A stretch of 55,825 nucleotides of DNA from Candidatus Yanofskyibacteriota bacterium (GTDB taxonomy: Bacteria; Patescibacteriota; Minisyncoccia; 2-02-FULL-40-12; GWA2-44-9): contig JACPNL010000010.1 of NCBI GenBank assembly GCA_016185505.1, forward strand, positions 1 through 55,825, read 5' to 3'. The notes under the pieces were generated by a model, which saw nothing but the letters and a program-made list of their open reading frames with translations, did no database searches and was not told the DNA's origin. The position numbers and the translations under genes were made by a program. How positions within the stretch are numbered: the stretch's first letter is position 1; each line of letters starts with the position of its first letter. This document shows positions 20,203 through 46,420 of the stretch, one piece after another.

Positions 20203-21360
20203 TTACAATATTATTCCCCCTCCGAGAAGCTGCTGACCTTTATAAAATACGGCTGATTGACCGGGGGTTACGGCTGACTCTGGTTTTTTGAACACGATTT
20301 CGCCACTATTTTTTACAACCGCTTTAGACAACGGCGCCCTATAGCGCGTCCGCGCATCCAACTCCTCGCCCCTGTGGATAAACGACTTGCGAAGTCGTTT
20401 ATCCACAGGTTGAGCTATTGGATTTATCCAGTTTATAGCGGTTAATTTGAAATTTTGAGAGAGTAGATCTTTCTTCGAACCGACGTAAATGATGTTATTT
20501 TTGATATCTTTCCTAACAACAAAATAGGGGCCCTTGCCGTTCTTTATATCCAGACCGTGCCTTTGGCCGATGGTATAGTAGAACACGCCATCGTGTTGTC
20601 CAACAACACGCCCTGAGCGAGCAAAACGAGTCGAATGGGCAACATCCAACAAGATAATATTTCCGATCTTTGGCTTGATATAATTTTTTAAAAATTCTTT
20701 CATGTTTAACGGCCCGATGAAGCACACTCCCTGGCTATCTTTCTTGTCAGCCGTCGACAGGCCGAATTTTTTAGCCATTCTCCTAACCTCCGGTTTTGTA
20801 TAGTCACCAATCGGAAAGAAGCAATGTTTCAACTGCCTCTGGGTTAAGGTCCAGAGAAAATAGGATTGATCTTTGTTCTGGTCAACAGCTTTTAATAATT
20901 TATAGTCATTAATTTTTAATTTTTCATTTTTATTTTTTAATTTTCTTATGTAGTGTCCCGTCGCAATGTAATCCGCTCCTTCTTCCAATGCCTTCTCCAA
21001 AAATAGCCCGAACTTGATATGCTTATTGCACATTACATCCGGATTAGGCGTTTGACCGGTTTTATATTCTCGTATCATGTAGTCAGCCACTTCTTTTTTA
21101 TATTCTTGTGAAAAGTCCCACGTCAAAAGAGGAATGCCAATTTTTGCCGCTACCCGCATCGCGTCTTCTCGGTCTTGCTTCCAAAGACACCTGTGGATAA
21201 ACGACTTCGCAAGTCGTTTATCCACAGGTGGGCTCCATGGTTTCATAAAAACACCGGTTACATCGTAACCTTGTTTTTTCAACAGAGCAGCAGCCACAGA
21301 AGAGTCAACTCCTCCGGACATAGCAACATAAATCTTTTGTTTTTTAACTTGACGTTTCAT
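20203..21360 (-). CDS. mnmA: tRNA 2-thiouridylase MnmA
   Basis: AMSGGVDSSVAAALL, NPDVMCNKHIKFG, ATGHY, KDQSYFLWTL, KDSQGVCFIG, YTIGQRHGL; carries three in-frame palindromic insertions. Confidence 0.95.
   Translation of the reverse strand: MKRQVKKQKIYVAMSGGVDSSVAAALLKKQGYDVTGVFMKPWSPPVDKRLAKSFIHRCLWKQDREDAMRVAAKIGIPLLTWDFSQEYKKEVADYMIREYKTGQTPNPDVMCNKHIKFGLFLEKALEEGADYIATGHYIRKLKNKNEKLKINDYKLLKAVDQNKDQSYFLWTLTQRQLKHCFFPIGDYTKPEVRRMAKKFGLSTADKKDSQGVCFIGPLNMKEFLKNYIKPKIGNIILLDVAHSTRFARSGRVVGQHDGVFYYTIGQRHGLDIKNGKGPYFVVRKDIKNNIIYVGSKKDLLSQNFKLTAINWINPIAQPVDKRLRKSFIHRGEELDARTRYRAPLSKAVVKNSGEIVFKKPESAVTPGQSAVFYKGQQLLGGGIIL
20371..20409. repeat. 39-bp palindromic element in mnmA, loop inverted
   Basis: CCTGTGGATAAACGACTTGCGAAGTCGTTTATCCACAGG; read as PVDKRLRKSFIHR. 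Confidence 0.97.
21190..21228. repeat. 39-bp palindromic element in mnmA
   Basis: Identical to the alaS copy; read as PVDKRLAKSFIHR. Confidence 0.97.
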
Positions 21361-23357: not shown

Positions 23358-23370
23358 AGGAGTAAATTAA

Positions 23371-23580
23371 CATAATTAACCTAATTATTCTAATTAACCT
23401 AATTGACCTAAATAAATCCTCCCGATTTTGTCTGCTTCGCAGAAACAAAATCGAGGATCCTCGATATTCGCAAGCGAATATCGGGACAATGACCTAATAA
23501 CCAATGCCTGAAGGTTTTAGACATTAAAAATTAGGTATTATTTAGAATAATTAGAGCAATTAGAATAATTAGAATAATTT
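23371..23580. repeat. Intergenic inverted-arm repeat, copy 1 (CTAATTNNN units), containing the nested element 23420..23486
   Basis: CTAATTATT CTAATTAAC CTAATTGAC CTAAATAAA ... TTATTTAGAATAATTAGAGCAATTAGAATAATTAGAATAATT. Confidence 0.9.
23420..23486. repeat. 67-bp two-armed palindromic element
   Basis: TCCCGA[TTTTGTCTGCTTCGCAGAAACAAAA]TCGAGGATCCTCGA[TATTCGCAAGCGAATA]TCGGGA. Confidence 0.9.
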
Positions 23581-23581
23581 T

Positions 23582-25004: not shown

Positions 25005-27044
25005 TTGATTATGATGTTACTCAATAAAAAAGCAACGCGTTTTTTAACTATTTTAATACTCTTGGTTATTTCTGGAGCTTATTTAACTTCAGATATTTCT
25101 GCCGCCCCAAACGAAGAATCAACCGTCATTCAAATAAACAATCAAAACCCCGGCCTGATAAGCAGCACTCCGGATATTTTTACCAACCTTGTTGCCTGCG
25201 CTCTGTGGCAAAAAGACAGCAACTGGGGACGAAACGGCAAACGAGGCAATCCTAACGATTTAAGCAATGACGCTATCGCCTATAAAAATTCTGCCAGCAT
25301 CGGCCTTGGCGGAGTGGATATTATTGATATTATAGGCGGCGTTGACGGACCCGACCCCCAGCCCGGTTGGATTGATGTCACCCAGCCGGGTGTTGCCGGC
25401 GTTTGGGTCAAGCCAGATCCCTGTAGCGGCGCCGGAGGGCCGCCCGGTCCGGGCGGTGGAGGCGGCGGTGTTCCAGTCGGCTCAAATCTTGGTATTAGCG
25501 GTGATACATTCACTATCGGCGGAGTTTCTAAATTTTTGGTTCTAGCTTCATATTTTGACGCCTTAGACGCTTCTAACCTCGGCGGCGATTTAGATTATCT
25601 AAAATCAAAAGGAATTGACGGGATAAGAATATTCCCGAACTGGTGGGATTTTGATCCGGATAGCCAGACCTTTAATCCCGGAAACACCCTAATGGACGTA
25701 AATGGGAATATTAGTAGTAGCCGCATGAGCGATCTGTTAAGCGTTTTAAGCGCGGCAAAGAGCAGAAACATGATAGTAGACGTAACTTTTGCCAGAGAAA
25801 CAGTGCCCGGACCATGCGACGGGGACAGAATCCCAAATGTAATGTGCATGTCCGAATTTATGGAAGGAACAGAATCGGCAGTAAGACAGATTAACTCGGC
25901 CGGATACGGCAATGTGTTTTTTGACATCCAAAACGAATTTGAACAATTCAACTTTTCAAATTCTGACTTAATAGCGATTAAAAATAGAATTAAAAGTGTA
26001 AATTCAAATTTTATAGTTTCCGCTTCAGAAGTCGGGGGCGGTTCCGGCATCGCGGTGAGCACCGGCATGGACATAGTGAACACTCACGAACCCAGAGACA
26101 ATTGGCCCTCAAGTGTCTCTAGCGTCGTCTCCTCTGCGACTTCAACCAGAAAGCCAATTTATCTTGGCGAGTCGGCCAGAGTTGGCGATGGAGCCGACAG
26201 TACTCAAGAGTTCATCACCGCTGTAAGCGATACAAAAAGAGCCGGCGGAGCGGCTTGGACTTTTCATAGCCGAGCTAATTTTAATCTGGACAACTCATCT
26301 TTACAGAACAATTATAACCAAATAGAGAAAGATTTTCTTGACCAGTTTTTGTCTTCATTAAACAGGGTCACTTGGGGCGCAACGGGAATAACGAGCGGAG
26401 GCGGAGGAACCCTACCACCCCCCGGTCCCGGCCCGGGGCCAGCGCCAGAACCATCCGGCCCTCCAATTATTAACGGCATTAGCCCGCAAAAAGCGGTCGT
26501 GGGAGAAACGGTAGAAATTATCGGTTCTAATCTGACAACATCCGTAAAACTAGAAAATCTTGAAAACGAAAATTTCTATACAATTACCGCGTTTGTTCGT
26601 CAAAATAATACGATTGCTTCCTTTCAAGTACCTGATCTTTCAGGCGGTGTTTACAAAATTTTTAGTTTAAGTCCGCAAGGAGACACGGAAAGTCCGCAAA
26701 ATCTTACAATCAGGTCAGGCGGCAATCCTTTCGGTCAGTCGGTCCAGCCCACCATCCCAACTGAAGGACTATTGGGATTCGGTCAACTTATAGCAATGAT
26801 CTTCACCTGGTCTCTCAATATTCTGGGCATTGTTGTTTTCGTAATGATATTCTTTGCCGGATTTCAGTGGTTCACCGCCGCCGGCAATACGGCAAAAGTA
26901 AATGAGGCCAAGTCCAGAATAACCAATGCGATCACCGGAGCTCTTATCCTTCTGGCGGCGTGGATAATATTATATACGATAAACCCTGATCTGGTCGGGG
27001 GCACGTTCACTTTGCCGGGGGCAGGGATAGAAAATAGTAATTAA
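25005..27044 (+). CDS. Secreted cellulase-like (TIM-barrel) protein with IPT/TIG-like domain and C-terminal TrbC/VirB2-like membrane module
   Basis: NVFFDIQNEFEQFN, PIYLGES; PPIINGISPQKAVVGETVEIIGSNL; FTWSLNILGIVVFVMIFFAGFQWFTAAGN...GALILLAAWIILYTINPDLV. Confidence 0.75.
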   Translation: MIMMLLNKKATRFLTILILLVISGAYLTSDISAAPNEESTVIQINNQNPGLISSTPDIFTNLVACALWQKDSNWGRNGKRGNPNDLSNDAIAYKNSASIGLGGVDIIDIIGGVDGPDPQPGWIDVTQPGVAGVWVKPDPCSGAGGPPGPGGGGGGVPVGSNLGISGDTFTIGGVSKFLVLASYFDALDASNLGGDLDYLKSKGIDGIRIFPNWWDFDPDSQTFNPGNTLMDVNGNISSSRMSDLLSVLSAAKSRNMIVDVTFARETVPGPCDGDRIPNVMCMSEFMEGTESAVRQINSAGYGNVFFDIQNEFEQFNFSNSDLIAIKNRIKSVNSNFIVSASEVGGGSGIAVSTGMDIVNTHEPRDNWPSSVSSVVSSATSTRKPIYLGESARVGDGADSTQEFITAVSDTKRAGGAAWTFHSRANFNLDNSSLQNNYNQIEKDFLDQFLSSLNRVTWGATGITSGGGGTLPPPGPGPGPAPEPSGPPIINGISPQKAVVGETVEIIGSNLTTSVKLENLENENFYTITAFVRQNNTIASFQVPDLSGGVYKIFSLSPQGDTESPQNLTIRSGGNPFGQSVQPTIPTEGLLGFGQLIAMIFTWSLNILGIVVFVMIFFAGFQWFTAAGNTAKVNEAKSRITNAITGALILLAAWIILYTINPDLVGGTFTLPGAGIENSN

Positions 27045-27070: not shown

Positions 27071-29221
27071 ATGAAAAAATATTTACCCATCGGCTTCTTT
27101 TCTCTCCTTTATCTTTTTAGTATCTCTCCTGTAGCCGTTGCAAATACTTTGCCCGCGCCTAACCACTCTATTTTTTTTGGTTACTATCATGCGGACGCTC
27201 AATACGGCGATTTTAAAAATGAAGTCAAAGATTACACGAACACTCAAATAATTATCGGCGATAGCTGGATCAGGCCGCCTGATGTCGCGGAATCGGATAT
27301 CCAGAAATTAAACGAAGCTCTTAGCGAAACCGCCGCTCTCGGCCAAAAAATTGTTCTTATTCCTTCGGGTGATTTAGATATTATACTGAATGCGGCTGCG
27401 CCATTTTGGGATAATGTCGCGTTTATTTATTTTGCCGATGAACCGAATTGGGATAAAGCCACAACCGAGGAAAATATCGGCTCATTTAAAAATAAAATTC
27501 GCAGGGCCGGGCTTTCTCAAAAAGAAATTGCCATAAATTATACTCCTGAACAGATACTTTCAGGAACGGGGTACCAAGCCGGTAATTTGAATATAGTCGG
27601 ATTTGAAGCATATGTTGACCCCGCGCAACAAAATAACCAGGATATCGTCGCTGACTTAAACGCGCAGATAGACAATCTCAAACAAAAAATAGGCAATAAA
27701 CAAATGTTCATCGTAATTCAGGCCTACGACAGAAATGGGGATTGGAAAAATATAACCTCACTCCAAAATATTCAAATACCGCCCTATCTGGCCGCTTATA
27801 ATGACGAACGTGTCATCGGATTGCTGATGTTCTCTTATGCCAGACCGGGAGGCACGCGGGATAACCCTATCTTAGCAGAACAGCATCGTTTGATCTGGCA
27901 AGCGATGCAAGGATTAACTGTTGACGTTGATCCTAAGAATATACCGGCCGTTGCGCCTACAAGCGTCTGGAGTCCTTCTCAAACCAATAACGGCTGGTGG
28001 CCGTCTTTGTCCCCGGACGGCAAATACGTTGCCTATGGTAATTTCGGCGAGAGCTGGGTAACTGACCTTTCAACTGGACAAAACTATGACCTTTCAAAGC
28101 CAGCAGGCCTGCCAGATGGAGCCCGTTGCAGGGGCGGACAATGGATAACATCAAGCAAGGTCACTTTTATTTGCGACAGCATTCCGGGGATAACTGGATT
28201 TTACCGATATGAAGCAGCCATTGGCGAGTGGATAGCGAGAAAAACCGATGACGACCCGAACAACGTAGTGAGCAGTATATTTGTCGCAAAAGACGGCCAC
28301 TGGGCATCTTTCTTAGCTCTAACCAGAATTATTAAAGACAACACAGTCCTTACCGATAACCAACCCGGAGGGGCAATAGCCATAAGCGGTGACTTGCTAG
28401 TAAACGCCTGCACCAACGAGAACCAGCAGATCTGCGTATGGGACAGGACTAACCTTTCTACGTCTTACGATGTCAGAACTCCCTTATTTGAAATGGATAT
28501 GGAAGATGGATATATTACTTATGGCGGATTTGGACCGATCCGAGGTATAGACCCGAGCGGAAAAGATATTGATCTGACGGCAACTGCCTGGAAACGAGAA
28601 GGATCGCCAAGAGTATTAATGGTCAACGGACAACCTTGGGTCGCCACTTATACTTGGGACGACACGTTGGGAGTTTCCAACGTATTGATCCGGCCGTGGG
28701 GAGAAAGAAAAAGTATCGTCTTGCAAATGGATGCGGCATCTTTAAGCGTGGTTTACACAAACGGAAACTTCATAGTTGCGGCTAATAACGATCGGGGCGG
28801 ATTAATAGTTCAAACCATCCCCGCGGATTCGCCAAGAGTTGATCTATCAGGCGGCTTGCCGTCAGAAACACCGGGGTTAAGTCCTGCAAACAAAAAGAGC
28901 TTTTCAAGTCCGGTTTTACCCGTTATCCCCACTGAAGGCCTCCCTTCTTTCGGCCAACTTATAGCCACGATCTTCACCTGGTCTCTCAATATTTTGGGCA
29001 TTGTGGTTTTTGTCATGATATTCTTTGCCGGATTTCAGTGGTTCACCGCCGCCGGCAATACGGCAAAAGTAAATGAGGCCAAGTCCAGAATAACCAATGC
29101 GATCACCGGAGCTCTTATACTTCTTGCGGCGTGGATAATATTATATACGATAAACCCTGATCTGGTCGGGGGAGTACTTACGCTACCGGGGGTAGGAACG
29201 GAAACAGAAACTGGAAATTAA
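27071..29221 (+). CDS. Secreted TIM-barrel-like and beta-propeller-like protein with the same C-terminal TrbC/VirB2-like module
   Basis: N-terminal signal; repeated PDGKYVAY-type blades; C-terminus near-identical to the upstream gene. Confidence 0.75.
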   Translation: MKKYLPIGFFSLLYLFSISPVAVANTLPAPNHSIFFGYYHADAQYGDFKNEVKDYTNTQIIIGDSWIRPPDVAESDIQKLNEALSETAALGQKIVLIPSGDLDIILNAAAPFWDNVAFIYFADEPNWDKATTEENIGSFKNKIRRAGLSQKEIAINYTPEQILSGTGYQAGNLNIVGFEAYVDPAQQNNQDIVADLNAQIDNLKQKIGNKQMFIVIQAYDRNGDWKNITSLQNIQIPPYLAAYNDERVIGLLMFSYARPGGTRDNPILAEQHRLIWQAMQGLTVDVDPKNIPAVAPTSVWSPSQTNNGWWPSLSPDGKYVAYGNFGESWVTDLSTGQNYDLSKPAGLPDGARCRGGQWITSSKVTFICDSIPGITGFYRYEAAIGEWIARKTDDDPNNVVSSIFVAKDGHWASFLALTRIIKDNTVLTDNQPGGAIAISGDLLVNACTNENQQICVWDRTNLSTSYDVRTPLFEMDMEDGYITYGGFGPIRGIDPSGKDIDLTATAWKREGSPRVLMVNGQPWVATYTWDDTLGVSNVLIRPWGERKSIVLQMDAASLSVVYTNGNFIVAANNDRGGLIVQTIPADSPRVDLSGGLPSETPGLSPANKKSFSSPVLPVIPTEGLPSFGQLIATIFTWSLNILGIVVFVMIFFAGFQWFTAAGNTAKVNEAKSRITNAITGALILLAAWIILYTINPDLVGGVLTLPGVGTETETGN

Positions 29222-35517: not shown

Positions 35518-36390
35518 CAAAATAGCCGATTTTCTGATATACTTTCACAAATAATGAGAAAAATATCACTATATTTAATACTACTAATAACGGCTCTTGG
35601 GGCCGGTATTTTTATTTCTTTCATTGCTTTAAGGTCAATAAATAGGCCCGCTATCCGCCCTAGCTCGCTACCGGGGTTTGAATCAGACCCAAACGTCCCG
35701 ACTTCGTCTCCTTCGGAGCAACGAAGTCGAGGATCCTCGATTTCTCAGCCCCGCCAAGGCGGGGGAGAAATCGGGACGACTCAAACTCCAACAAAGACAC
35801 CTGGTCCCAACACAATAATTTATGACGTCCCCTTTACTCCCCAAGCGCCTTTCAGCGAATGGAGTAATCCCAAACTAAGCAACGGCTGCGAGGAGGCCTC
35901 AGCTCTTATGGCTATGTCGTGGGTAAGAGGTACAACGTTCACGCAAGAAGAAGCAAGGCGAGAAATTATCGCCGTTTCCGACTACGAATTGGCGAATCAC
36001 GGCGTGTATCTGGATACATCTTCCCAAGATACCTTTGATTGGATATTCAAAGAATATTACGGATATAACAAGGTAGAACTTTTCTACGATATTTCCGTTG
36101 AAGACATTAAAAAAGAATTGCGCGGCGGCAATTTGGTCATCGTGCCCGTGAACGGGCAGGAACTGCATAACCCCTACTACACACAGCCCGGGCCTCTGCG
36201 CCACAAAGTCGTAATAATCGGATACGATCCGGACAACAAAGAATTCATCACCAATGACCCCGGCACCCGGCTCGGAAAGCAGTACCGCTACCCGGAACAA
36301 GTGTTATTCAACGCGATACACGACTATCTGACCGGCAATGACCTCCCGTTGCCGCCAAAGCGCACCGCGATGATAGTTGTAAAAAAATAA
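35512..36390 (+). CDS. C39-family peptidase (probable start 35554, MRKISLYLILL)
   Basis: YDVPFTPQAPFSEWSNPKLSNGCEEASALMAMSW...HKVVIIGYDPDNKEFITNDPG. Confidence 0.88.
   Translation: MFQNSRFSDILSQIMRKISLYLILLITALGAGIFISFIALRSINRPAIRPSSLPGFESDPNVPTSSPSEQRSRGSSISQPRQGGGEIGTTQTPTKTPGPNTIIYDVPFTPQAPFSEWSNPKLSNGCEEASALMAMSWVRGTTFTQEEARREIIAVSDYELANHGVYLDTSSQDTFDWIFKEYYGYNKVELFYDISVEDIKKELRGGNLVIVPVNGQELHNPYYTQPGPLRHKVVIIGYDPDNKEFITNDPGTRLGKQYRYPEQVLFNAIHDYLTGNDLPLPPKRTAMIVVKK
35694..35778. repeat. 85-bp two-armed palindromic element inside the C39 peptidase gene
   Basis: CGTCCCGACTTCGTCTCCTTCGGAGCAACGAAGTCGAGGATCCTCGATTTCTCAGCCCCGCCAAGGCGGGGGAGAAATCGGGACG. Confidence 0.92.
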
Positions 36391-42893: not shown

Positions 42894-42898
42894 AAAAA

Positions 42899-43043
42899 AT
42901 TAACCTAATTATTCTAATTGCTCTAATTGACCTAAATAAACCCTAATGACCGAATAACTAATGACCAAAGGTTTGAGGATTAGACATTAGAAATTGTGAT
43001 TTATTTAGAATAATTAGAATAATTAGGTTAATTAGAATAATTT
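42899..43043. repeat. Intergenic inverted-arm repeat, copy 2 (CTAATTNNN units)
   Basis: CCTAATTATTCTAATTGCTCTAATTGACCTAAATAAA ... TTTATTTAGAATAATTAGAATAATTAGGTTAATTAGAATAATT. Confidence 0.9.
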
Positions 43044-43695
43044 ATTTTCGGAATACTGTCATCTTGACTCCTATAAAACTTACCACTAACGCCGCTGCCG
43101 AACCGGCGATTCCGCCGGCATTGGCCCACTGATCACTGCTCAAGTCGAACATTGGATCTAAAAAATTTACTAAACCAGAAGCTATTCCAATATTCACAAG
43201 TCCGGCGATAATGTAAGCAGTAAAAAATTTTCCCAACTCTGCGGCGTTAATTTTGTTTTCCTCGCCAGAGGCGTTAACGCCCACCAGAGGCGGGTCAACC
43301 TCTGGTTGAGAAAATACCCAGAATTTGTTCCAAAAATAACTGTGAAATGTTGCTATAATAAACGCCGACGCGACGAAAATTGAATACCATAATCCCTTAT
43401 TTATATCCGACCAAGATATTAAAACATTCAAAATCCCAAAATATACCGCCGCGTTGGTAAAACCAACAGCAGAAAATTTGCCGAACTGACCGAAGAATGC
43501 CAGCCACCGCCCCAAAAAATATCCAAGATTTACCCCCAGTATCCAAAGAATGGGAACAAAAATAATCAACCAAGCATAAGATACACTGACAAATTCCGGC
43601 AATTCAAGAAAAACAAATATCCGCCACGCGATCAAACCGGTTATGAGTCCGGTTATTACTGAAAAATAAAAATCTTTGCGAGAAAATTGATGCAC
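43042..43695 (-). CDS. GtrA-like membrane protein
   Basis: Four TM segments; KFSAVGFTNAAVYFGILNVLI, SYFWNKFWVF. Confidence 0.75.
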   Translation of the reverse strand: MHQFSRKDFYFSVITGLITGLIAWRIFVFLELPEFVSVSYAWLIIFVPILWILGVNLGYFLGRWLAFFGQFGKFSAVGFTNAAVYFGILNVLISWSDINKGLWYSIFVASAFIIATFHSYFWNKFWVFSQPEVDPPLVGVNASGEENKINAAELGKFFTAYIIAGLVNIGIASGLVNFLDPMFDLSSDQWANAGGIAGSAAALVVSFIGVKMTVFRK

Positions 43696-46271: not shown

Positions 46272-46420
46272 AATTAAATTATTCTAATTTCTAATTAACC
46301 TAATTGACCTAAATAAATCCCAATGACCTAATGCCTAAAAACTTATTTCGCTATTTGGGTATTAGACATTAGTCATTATTTAGAATAATTAGAGCAATTA
46401 GAATAATTAGGTCAATTTTT
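46272..46420. repeat. Intergenic inverted-arm repeat, copy 3 (empty site for the 67-bp element)
   Basis: AACCTAATTGACCTAAATAAATCC|CAATGACCTAAT... TTATTTAGAATAATTAGAGCAATTAGAATAATTAGGTCAATT. Confidence 0.9.

Follow-up and report, generated by a model that had tools for sequence, protein, structure and literature searches.

Two hairpin-forming insertions in a 55,825-nucleotide stretch of contig JACPNL010000010.1 from a Candidatus Yanofskyibacteriota bacterium (hereafter the window) belong to a dispersed family of two-hairpin elements that share one geometry, have covarying arms, insert cleanly and are linked to a single subfamily of small GIY-YIG nucleases. The family is probably a structure-defined mobile element, with an autonomous form that encodes this junction-type nuclease and with non-autonomous copies in the window. 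The initial annotation had singled out one copy as a cruciform element in a C39 peptidase gene. That setting is not the point, as the copy is a single member of a presumed mobile family with many dispersed, mostly extragenic insertions.

Anatomy and covariation of the element

The two copies that had been placed at 35694-35778 and 23420..23486 are both present, with exact limits of 35696-35776 (81 bp) and 23420-23486 (67 bp), each running from TCCCGA to TCGGGA (Table 1). The core described as conserved, TCGAGGATCCTCGA, is exact in both; no third core was found in the window with up to two mismatches allowed (chance mean 0.15). The description of the arms as completely different holds for arm 2 and is overstated for arm 1 (82% identity over 51 nt, D11), where the differences between the window copies are mostly paired and compensatory. 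Folded as single-stranded DNA, the two elements form the same two bulged hairpins, at -29.9 and -21.3 kcal/mol (z -7.4 and -6.7). Neither half is a perfect palindrome: next to the core, both halves have a bulged A/T, and long arms also have a one-sided 2-nt bulge.

In the element within the C39 gene, unit 1 consists of TCC, a 9-bp outer stem CGACTTCGT/ACGAAGTCG and an inner hairpin, with a 2-nt 3' bulge (CA, 35719-35720) and a bulged A at 35730 followed by GGA. Its partner, unit 2, has the long arm CGATTTCTC/GAGAAATCG with an inner CCCCGCC stem and a 2-nt bulge (CT). The long arm of the second copy, CGATTTTGT/ACAAAATCG with an inner CTGC hairpin, lies in unit 1.

Table 1. Features of the two-hairpin elements and their host sites, with positions in the window.
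Feature	Position	Strand	Basis
Unit 1, element in the C39 gene	35696..35733	+	sequence, pattern search, DNA fold
Unit 2, head-to-head partner, element in the C39 gene	35734..35776	-	sequence, pattern search, DNA fold
Core TCGAGGA/TCCTCGA, junction of the abutting units	35727..35740	.	core searches, window and genome
Unit 1, second window copy	23420..23457	+	sequence, pattern search, DNA fold
Unit 2, second window copy, short arm CGATATTCG/CGAATATCG	23458..23486	-	sequence, pattern search, DNA fold
Host gene: N-terminal anchor, linker, C39-like peptidase domain	35554..36390	+	ORF, Pfam PF13529, orthologue comparison
AT-rich repeat hosting the second copy; filled site AAATAAATCC(67-bp element)CAATGACC	23365..23581	+	repeat comparison, site comparison
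Paralogous AT-rich repeat without element; empty site AAATAAATCC^CAATGACC, junction 46320/46321	46275..46419	+	repeat comparison, site comparison
Empty RAYT-type (D5) palindrome ..GACTTGCGAAGTC..	20370..20413	+	repeat comparison, palindrome/Y1 locus comparison

In the family as a whole, the unit is asymmetric and reads 5'-TCC, CGA plus 6 variable bp, an inner stem or loop, 6 variable bp plus TCG, a bulged A, and GGA-3'. Two such units abut head-to-head, with no spacer, to give the full element. When half units were counted in all loci read (366 matches, with overlapping loci counted repeatedly), the TCCTCGA partner followed directly in 345 of the 366 and the remainder were nearly all variants of TCCTCGA, so that no lone unit was found among them. 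Unit lengths are bimodal (24-31 and 42-46 nt). The outer stem, CGA included, is exactly 9 bp in 69 of 97 long units. A 0/2 bulge on the 3' side, usually TT or CT, is present in 63 of the 90 long units with no more than one outer-stem mismatch. Some variants whose foot bases change together in one unit (TTC T CGA..TCG GAA; CTC T CGA..TCG GAG) support the foot stem with its bulge.

As the annotation had suggested, we scanned CPR genomes and counted compensatory changes, and the outcome was positive. No covariance model was built because arm length and content vary; covariation was instead assessed by direct pair counting with shuffled and slid controls. In 130 distinct units, the six variable pairs are Watson-Crick in 83% of cases, versus 45% (sd 1.5) with the 3' halves shuffled and 24-41% after a displacement of 1-2 positions. 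For a given pair, as many as 72 units have both bases different from those of the commonest pair. When 847 kb was scanned for the structure without regard to sequence, all 98 matches had the same core, and there were none with a bulge size of 0 or 2; this speaks for specificity rather than completeness, because the scanned loci were chosen by core. The claim that structure is what is recognised thus stands as far as the covariation, the fixed 9-bp stem and the 2-nt 3' bulge go. It is incomplete in that the feet and core (TCCCGA, TCGAGGA) also keep their sequence, and recognition would therefore be of shape plus foot.

Quasipalindrome correction can create compensatory changes without selection, and template switching of this palindrome-generating kind could by itself account for the paired changes in the arms. 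As the sole explanation, with no mobility, it is scarcely credible: it cannot explain why unrelated sites and different lineages share identical feet and core, and it is contradicted by a clean pair of empty and filled sites in the window, described below. Template switching may nevertheless contribute to the evolution of the arms.

Distribution, insertion sites and target context

The 681-kb genome that contains the window (G000) has 28 exact copies of the core and 57 half units of the form TCCCGA-N10-40-TCGAGGA, and the controls (a reversed pattern for the core) gave 0 in both cases. The core was also found in 18 of 58 relatives and in 18 of 45 genomes of the order. In GTDB, the strict full-element pattern matches at least 104 stretches; among the 80 matches listed, every named record is from the CPR (Patescibacteria), including Yanofsky-, Magasanik-, Sung-, Wolfe-, Lipton- and Daviesbacteria and others. 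Only 3 of 380 genomes sampled from the phylum matched the strict pattern, which makes the distribution patchy. Viral carriage was rejected, as a search of IMG/VR gave no match to the element.

After de-duplication, the Magasanikbacteria genome MFQY (G058) has 34 elements in 22 arm combinations. Individual arms in this genome pair with up to five partners, TTCCGTTTTGTCGGAA with five different partner arms. As the arms recur with various partners, they have been reassorted.

The second window copy lies in an AT-rich repeat with an element-free paralogue. Comparison of the filled site (23420) with the empty one (46320/46321) reveals a clean insertion without target duplication. The repeat itself (AATTAACCTAATTATTCTAATT...TTAGAATAATTAGAATAATT; about 150-200 bp; window copies at 23365-23581, 42898-43044 and 46275-46419) is apparently another MITE-like element. 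The window contains a further repeat, a 256-nt direct repeat with 91% identity (26778-27033 and 28949-29204), placed at the 3' ends of the adjacent large ORFs 25005-27044 and 27071-29221.

Filled and empty versions also exist for the D5 palindromes. Besides the empty copy at 20370..20413, seven copies of this palindrome in G000 hold the element in their loop, at GACTTG^CGAAGTC, again without target duplication. D5 palindromes (ACCTGTGGATAAACGACTT..) occur in the window at 2699-2742, 20370-20413 and 21189-21232, and at loci L148, L037 and L039. They flank Y1/RAYT genes in this and related genomes, and are thus a RAYT palindrome family able to host the two-hairpin element in its loop. At three loci (L005, L018 and L021), element copies nest with a second family inside their arms. 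This second two-hairpin family, TATCCC..TCGAGGACTCTCGA..TCGGAG, lies in the TTTTG^CAAAA loop of first-family arms.

A general preference for hairpin loops as targets was rejected: flank symmetry at the junctions is at control level except for the D5 palindromes, which leaves only these and tRNA D-arms as special targets. The flanking base at -1 is G in 61% of cases, and the flanks are mostly TTG, TAG, TTA or TCG.

Copies are mostly extragenic, with 47 of 163 inside ORFs versus 71% of random positions. Thirty-one copies are flanked on each side by 150 nt or more of open frame, and 28 of these 31 have a length divisible by three, which is partly by construction because an out-of-frame copy would interrupt the frame. 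The copy in the C39 gene is of this in-frame kind. The annotation had read it as an in-frame linker after the signal anchor, and it indeed supplies 27 in-frame codons between the N-terminal anchor and a Peptidase_C39_2 domain (PF13529, residues 105-250, E 1.4e-14).

Neighbouring genes are more often convergent than divergent (22 vs 9), which, together with the strong pairing, would suit a functional RNA or regulatory hairpin, such as a terminator or mRNA stabiliser, under selection on host genes. We regard this explanation as very unlikely. The element is symmetric about its core and has no T-run, and its copies lie in frame within unrelated genes, within tRNA genes and other repeats, and at unrelated sites. 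In the one orthologue tested, that of the C39 gene in a congeneric genome, the host locus is not conserved and an unrelated Pro/Thr/Ser linker occupies the position of the element. Rfam has no matches in the window besides tRNAs.

Whole tRNA genes are enclosed by arms at five loci: Lys and Glu in G000 (L011, L019), Thr in L160, and Ser in L139 and L182. In some of these, the acceptor stem continues the arm stem. The arms can therefore hold passengers. tRNA sequence reaches the insertion junction in 12 of 172 elements, mostly near positions 17-23, and 13 of 318 flanks bear tRNA sequence, versus 7 of 1590 control flanks. Joining the flanks did not recover an intact interrupted tRNA gene in any of 151 cases, so the tRNA flanks are fragments or duplicated halves.

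The linked GIY-YIG nuclease

In an unbiased clustering of all ORFs neighbouring the element, the top family was a small GIY-YIG nuclease, and no other plausible mobility protein family recurred. The linked proteins form a small SLX1/UPF0213-like subfamily with the C-terminus WK[SK]R.A[IV]E.L (WKSRxAIExL). They match PF01541 with E-values of 8e-16 to 5e-19, and their PDB relatives are UPF0213 (1zg2) and, more weakly, SLX1. The motif residues Y, G, R and E are invariant, with R26 and E62 being of catalytic type.

All 10 genes of the WKSR subfamily lie within 150 bp of a core, compared with 155 of 868 ORFs overall in the 8-kb loci. For the reverse search, a profile was run on the 45 genomes of the order and on 22 further genomes with the element, with no requirement for an adjoining element. 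All 15 matches of at least 99.5 bits have a core, exact or with up to two mismatches, within 280 bp; six of the 15 had not contributed to the profile. Of the GIY-YIG loci listed with lower scores, only four have a core within 280 bp (one exact, three variant). In one genome (G036), which was found through the protein alone, the core is the variant TCGAGGGTCCTCGA.

In seven loci (L260-L264, L266 and L295), the nuclease gene is inside an arm. These gene-bearing arms keep the foot with its bulged base, an outer stem of 8-9 bp and a 2-3-nt 3' bulge; L263 is decayed, with an outer stem of 6 contiguous bp that then resumes. Their long inner stem consists of sequence surrounding the start codon and the C-terminal codons. 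Around GIY-YIG genes generally, flanking inverted repeats showed no excess over controls; the position in the arm therefore belongs to the WKSR subfamily and not to all CPR GIY-YIG genes.

The nuclease gene does not accompany every copy. Of 20 GTDB genomes with the element, only about 7 clearly have the gene, and many copies thus persist in its absence. The genome that contains the window (95% complete) has no WKSR-type nuclease, and its copies are therefore non-autonomous or orphaned.

GIY-YIG genes are also associated with tRNA genes. Small genes of several subfamilies lie beside them (L063, L096, L130, L082, L133, L265, L267, L269 and L294), typically with a tRNA 5' half on one side and a complete tRNA on the other; in L096, L130, L082 and L294 the gene is between a tRNA half and a complete tRNA. 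Some GIY-YIG copies adjoin the element in tRNA-half duplications rather than lying in an arm, and genes of other subfamilies occur in such duplications without the element. At L265, the duplicated tRNA half contains a different two-hairpin insert, CCACCGCTGCAAGCGGGGCCTCGCCAAAGGCGATGG.

The GIY-YIG and tRNA genes could be passengers in arms moved by something else. The nuclease gene would then be a homing-type passenger of hairpin loops and tRNA genes, and another factor, or replication and repair at hairpins, would move the element. The tRNA genes in arms, the other subfamilies in element-free tRNA-half duplications and the many genomes with the element and no nuclease gene all fit this explanation. 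Even so, we think it rather unlikely, as the linkage is specific to one subfamily and nearly absolute, the inner stem of the arm is formed by the gene's own ends, and no other candidate for mobility recurs near the element.

Proposed mobilization and relation to known systems

The nuclease is SLX1/UPF0213-like, of a superfamily that cuts branched DNA, as SLX1 does. From this superfamily and from the place of the gene inside the element, we infer that the nuclease mobilizes the element, and in what manner. The protein would recognize extruded or single-stranded hairpins by the foot, the bulged base and the 9-bp stem, irrespective of arm sequence, and would nick the hairpin bases. The hairpin pair, with the contents of the arm loop, might then be copied or moved to new sites, which would include tRNA D-arms and the loops of other palindromes. 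For copies with plain arms, the enzyme may be supplied in trans, or the copies may be relics. Mutations in the arms would persist if only pairing matters, or if template switching within the hairpin copies changes across the stem.

The main alternative enzyme is a Y1 transposase (RAYT, IS200/IS605-like), which would mobilize classical REP/BIME hairpins in trans via hairpin, foot and bulge. Inverted hairpin pairs, a bulge in the stem, mostly extragenic location and the lack of target duplication all resemble REPs and IS200/IS605; G000 has two Y1 genes, and many relatives have Y1 genes too. At the 22 Y1 loci examined, however, no element unit was nearby, and many of these loci are flanked by long palindromes of their own that are unlike the element (the D5 family in G000, G001 and G020). 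Y1 is missing from G058, the genome with the most elements, and from the likewise element-rich G060, G061, G066 and G069, as well as from G034, G012, G021 and G027, and the element has no GTAG tag. RAYT/Y1 was therefore rejected as resident enzyme, and we consider it improbable that the family is of the classical REP/BIME type.

REP, BIME and REPIN sequences with their RAYT (TnpA-REP), for example the E. coli group 2 REPs, are dispersed short hairpins in inverted pairs, the dimer being the unit (PMC8266576). The element is likewise a short, dispersed, mostly extragenic and dimeric unit of inverted hairpins with an irregular zone or bulge in the stem. It differs in its TCC/GGA feet with a bulged A in place of a GTAG tetranucleotide, in its almost sequence-free arms and in its units, which abut without a spacer. 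It also differs in its linked enzyme, which is GIY-YIG and not Y1 and is encoded inside the arm; none of the 22 Y1/RAYT loci examined is flanked by the element.

The CGTC-tagged REPs, including Rickettsia RPE and Neisseria dRS3, are mainly head-to-head dimers with no dedicated transposase known; copies occur in frame in genes and dimers within larger palindromes, and that paper does not report them from CPR (PMC3733652). The element shares the head-to-head dimers, the occasional in-frame copies and the location within larger palindromes. Unlike these REPs, it has no CGTC tag outside the stem, has a different sequence, is found in CPR and has a candidate enzyme.

Similarly to MITEs of DDE transposons, the element is short, non-coding and dispersed and has inverted ends; in contrast to them, it makes no target duplication, consists internally of two self-complementary arms and has no link to DDE enzymes. 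The hairpins and the lack of duplication would fit IS200/IS605, but Y1 is missing from the genomes richest in the element. Integron attC sites are recognised as folded strands, with extrahelical bases and variable stem sequence. Variable stems and extrahelical bases are also seen here, where recognition of a folded strand is presumed; the layout differs, and we noticed no attC R or L boxes in the element. The nuclease domain is that of GIY-YIG homing endonucleases and of UPF0213/SLX1 (PF01541; PDB matches UPF0213 and SLX1), but unlike homing genes, which are in introns or free-standing, the gene encodes a very small single-domain protein and lies in a loop of structured DNA.

The element with its in-arm nuclease looks like an undescribed kind of mobile DNA. 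In the open-licence PMC literature, we found no description of an association between GIY-YIG genes and two-hairpin elements. We lean slightly towards the broader reading that the element represents a novel class of mobile DNA, autonomous and specific to Patescibacteria so far as named. Its two hairpins would be recognised by their geometry, with foot, bulged base, 9-bp stem and 2-nt bulge, and moved by an SLX1-like GIY-YIG nuclease of about 80 residues encoded in its own arm loop. It would be able to carry tRNA genes in the same loop and to insert into tRNA D-arms, and related GIY-YIG subfamilies would serve further families of two-hairpin elements.

The plain copies alone would be a REP-like variant; the GIY-YIG gene inside the arm sets the system apart. 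It offers a concrete, testable pair of element and enzyme, the latter from a different nuclease superfamily and with a presumed role, in which shape is what mainly defines the ends, and could provide a structure-programmed, sequence-tolerant tool for DNA processing. The pair might help to account for the large number of small GIY-YIG genes in CPR genomes, and the element gives these streamlined genomes a further means of acquiring repeats, in-frame linkers and tRNA rearrangements.
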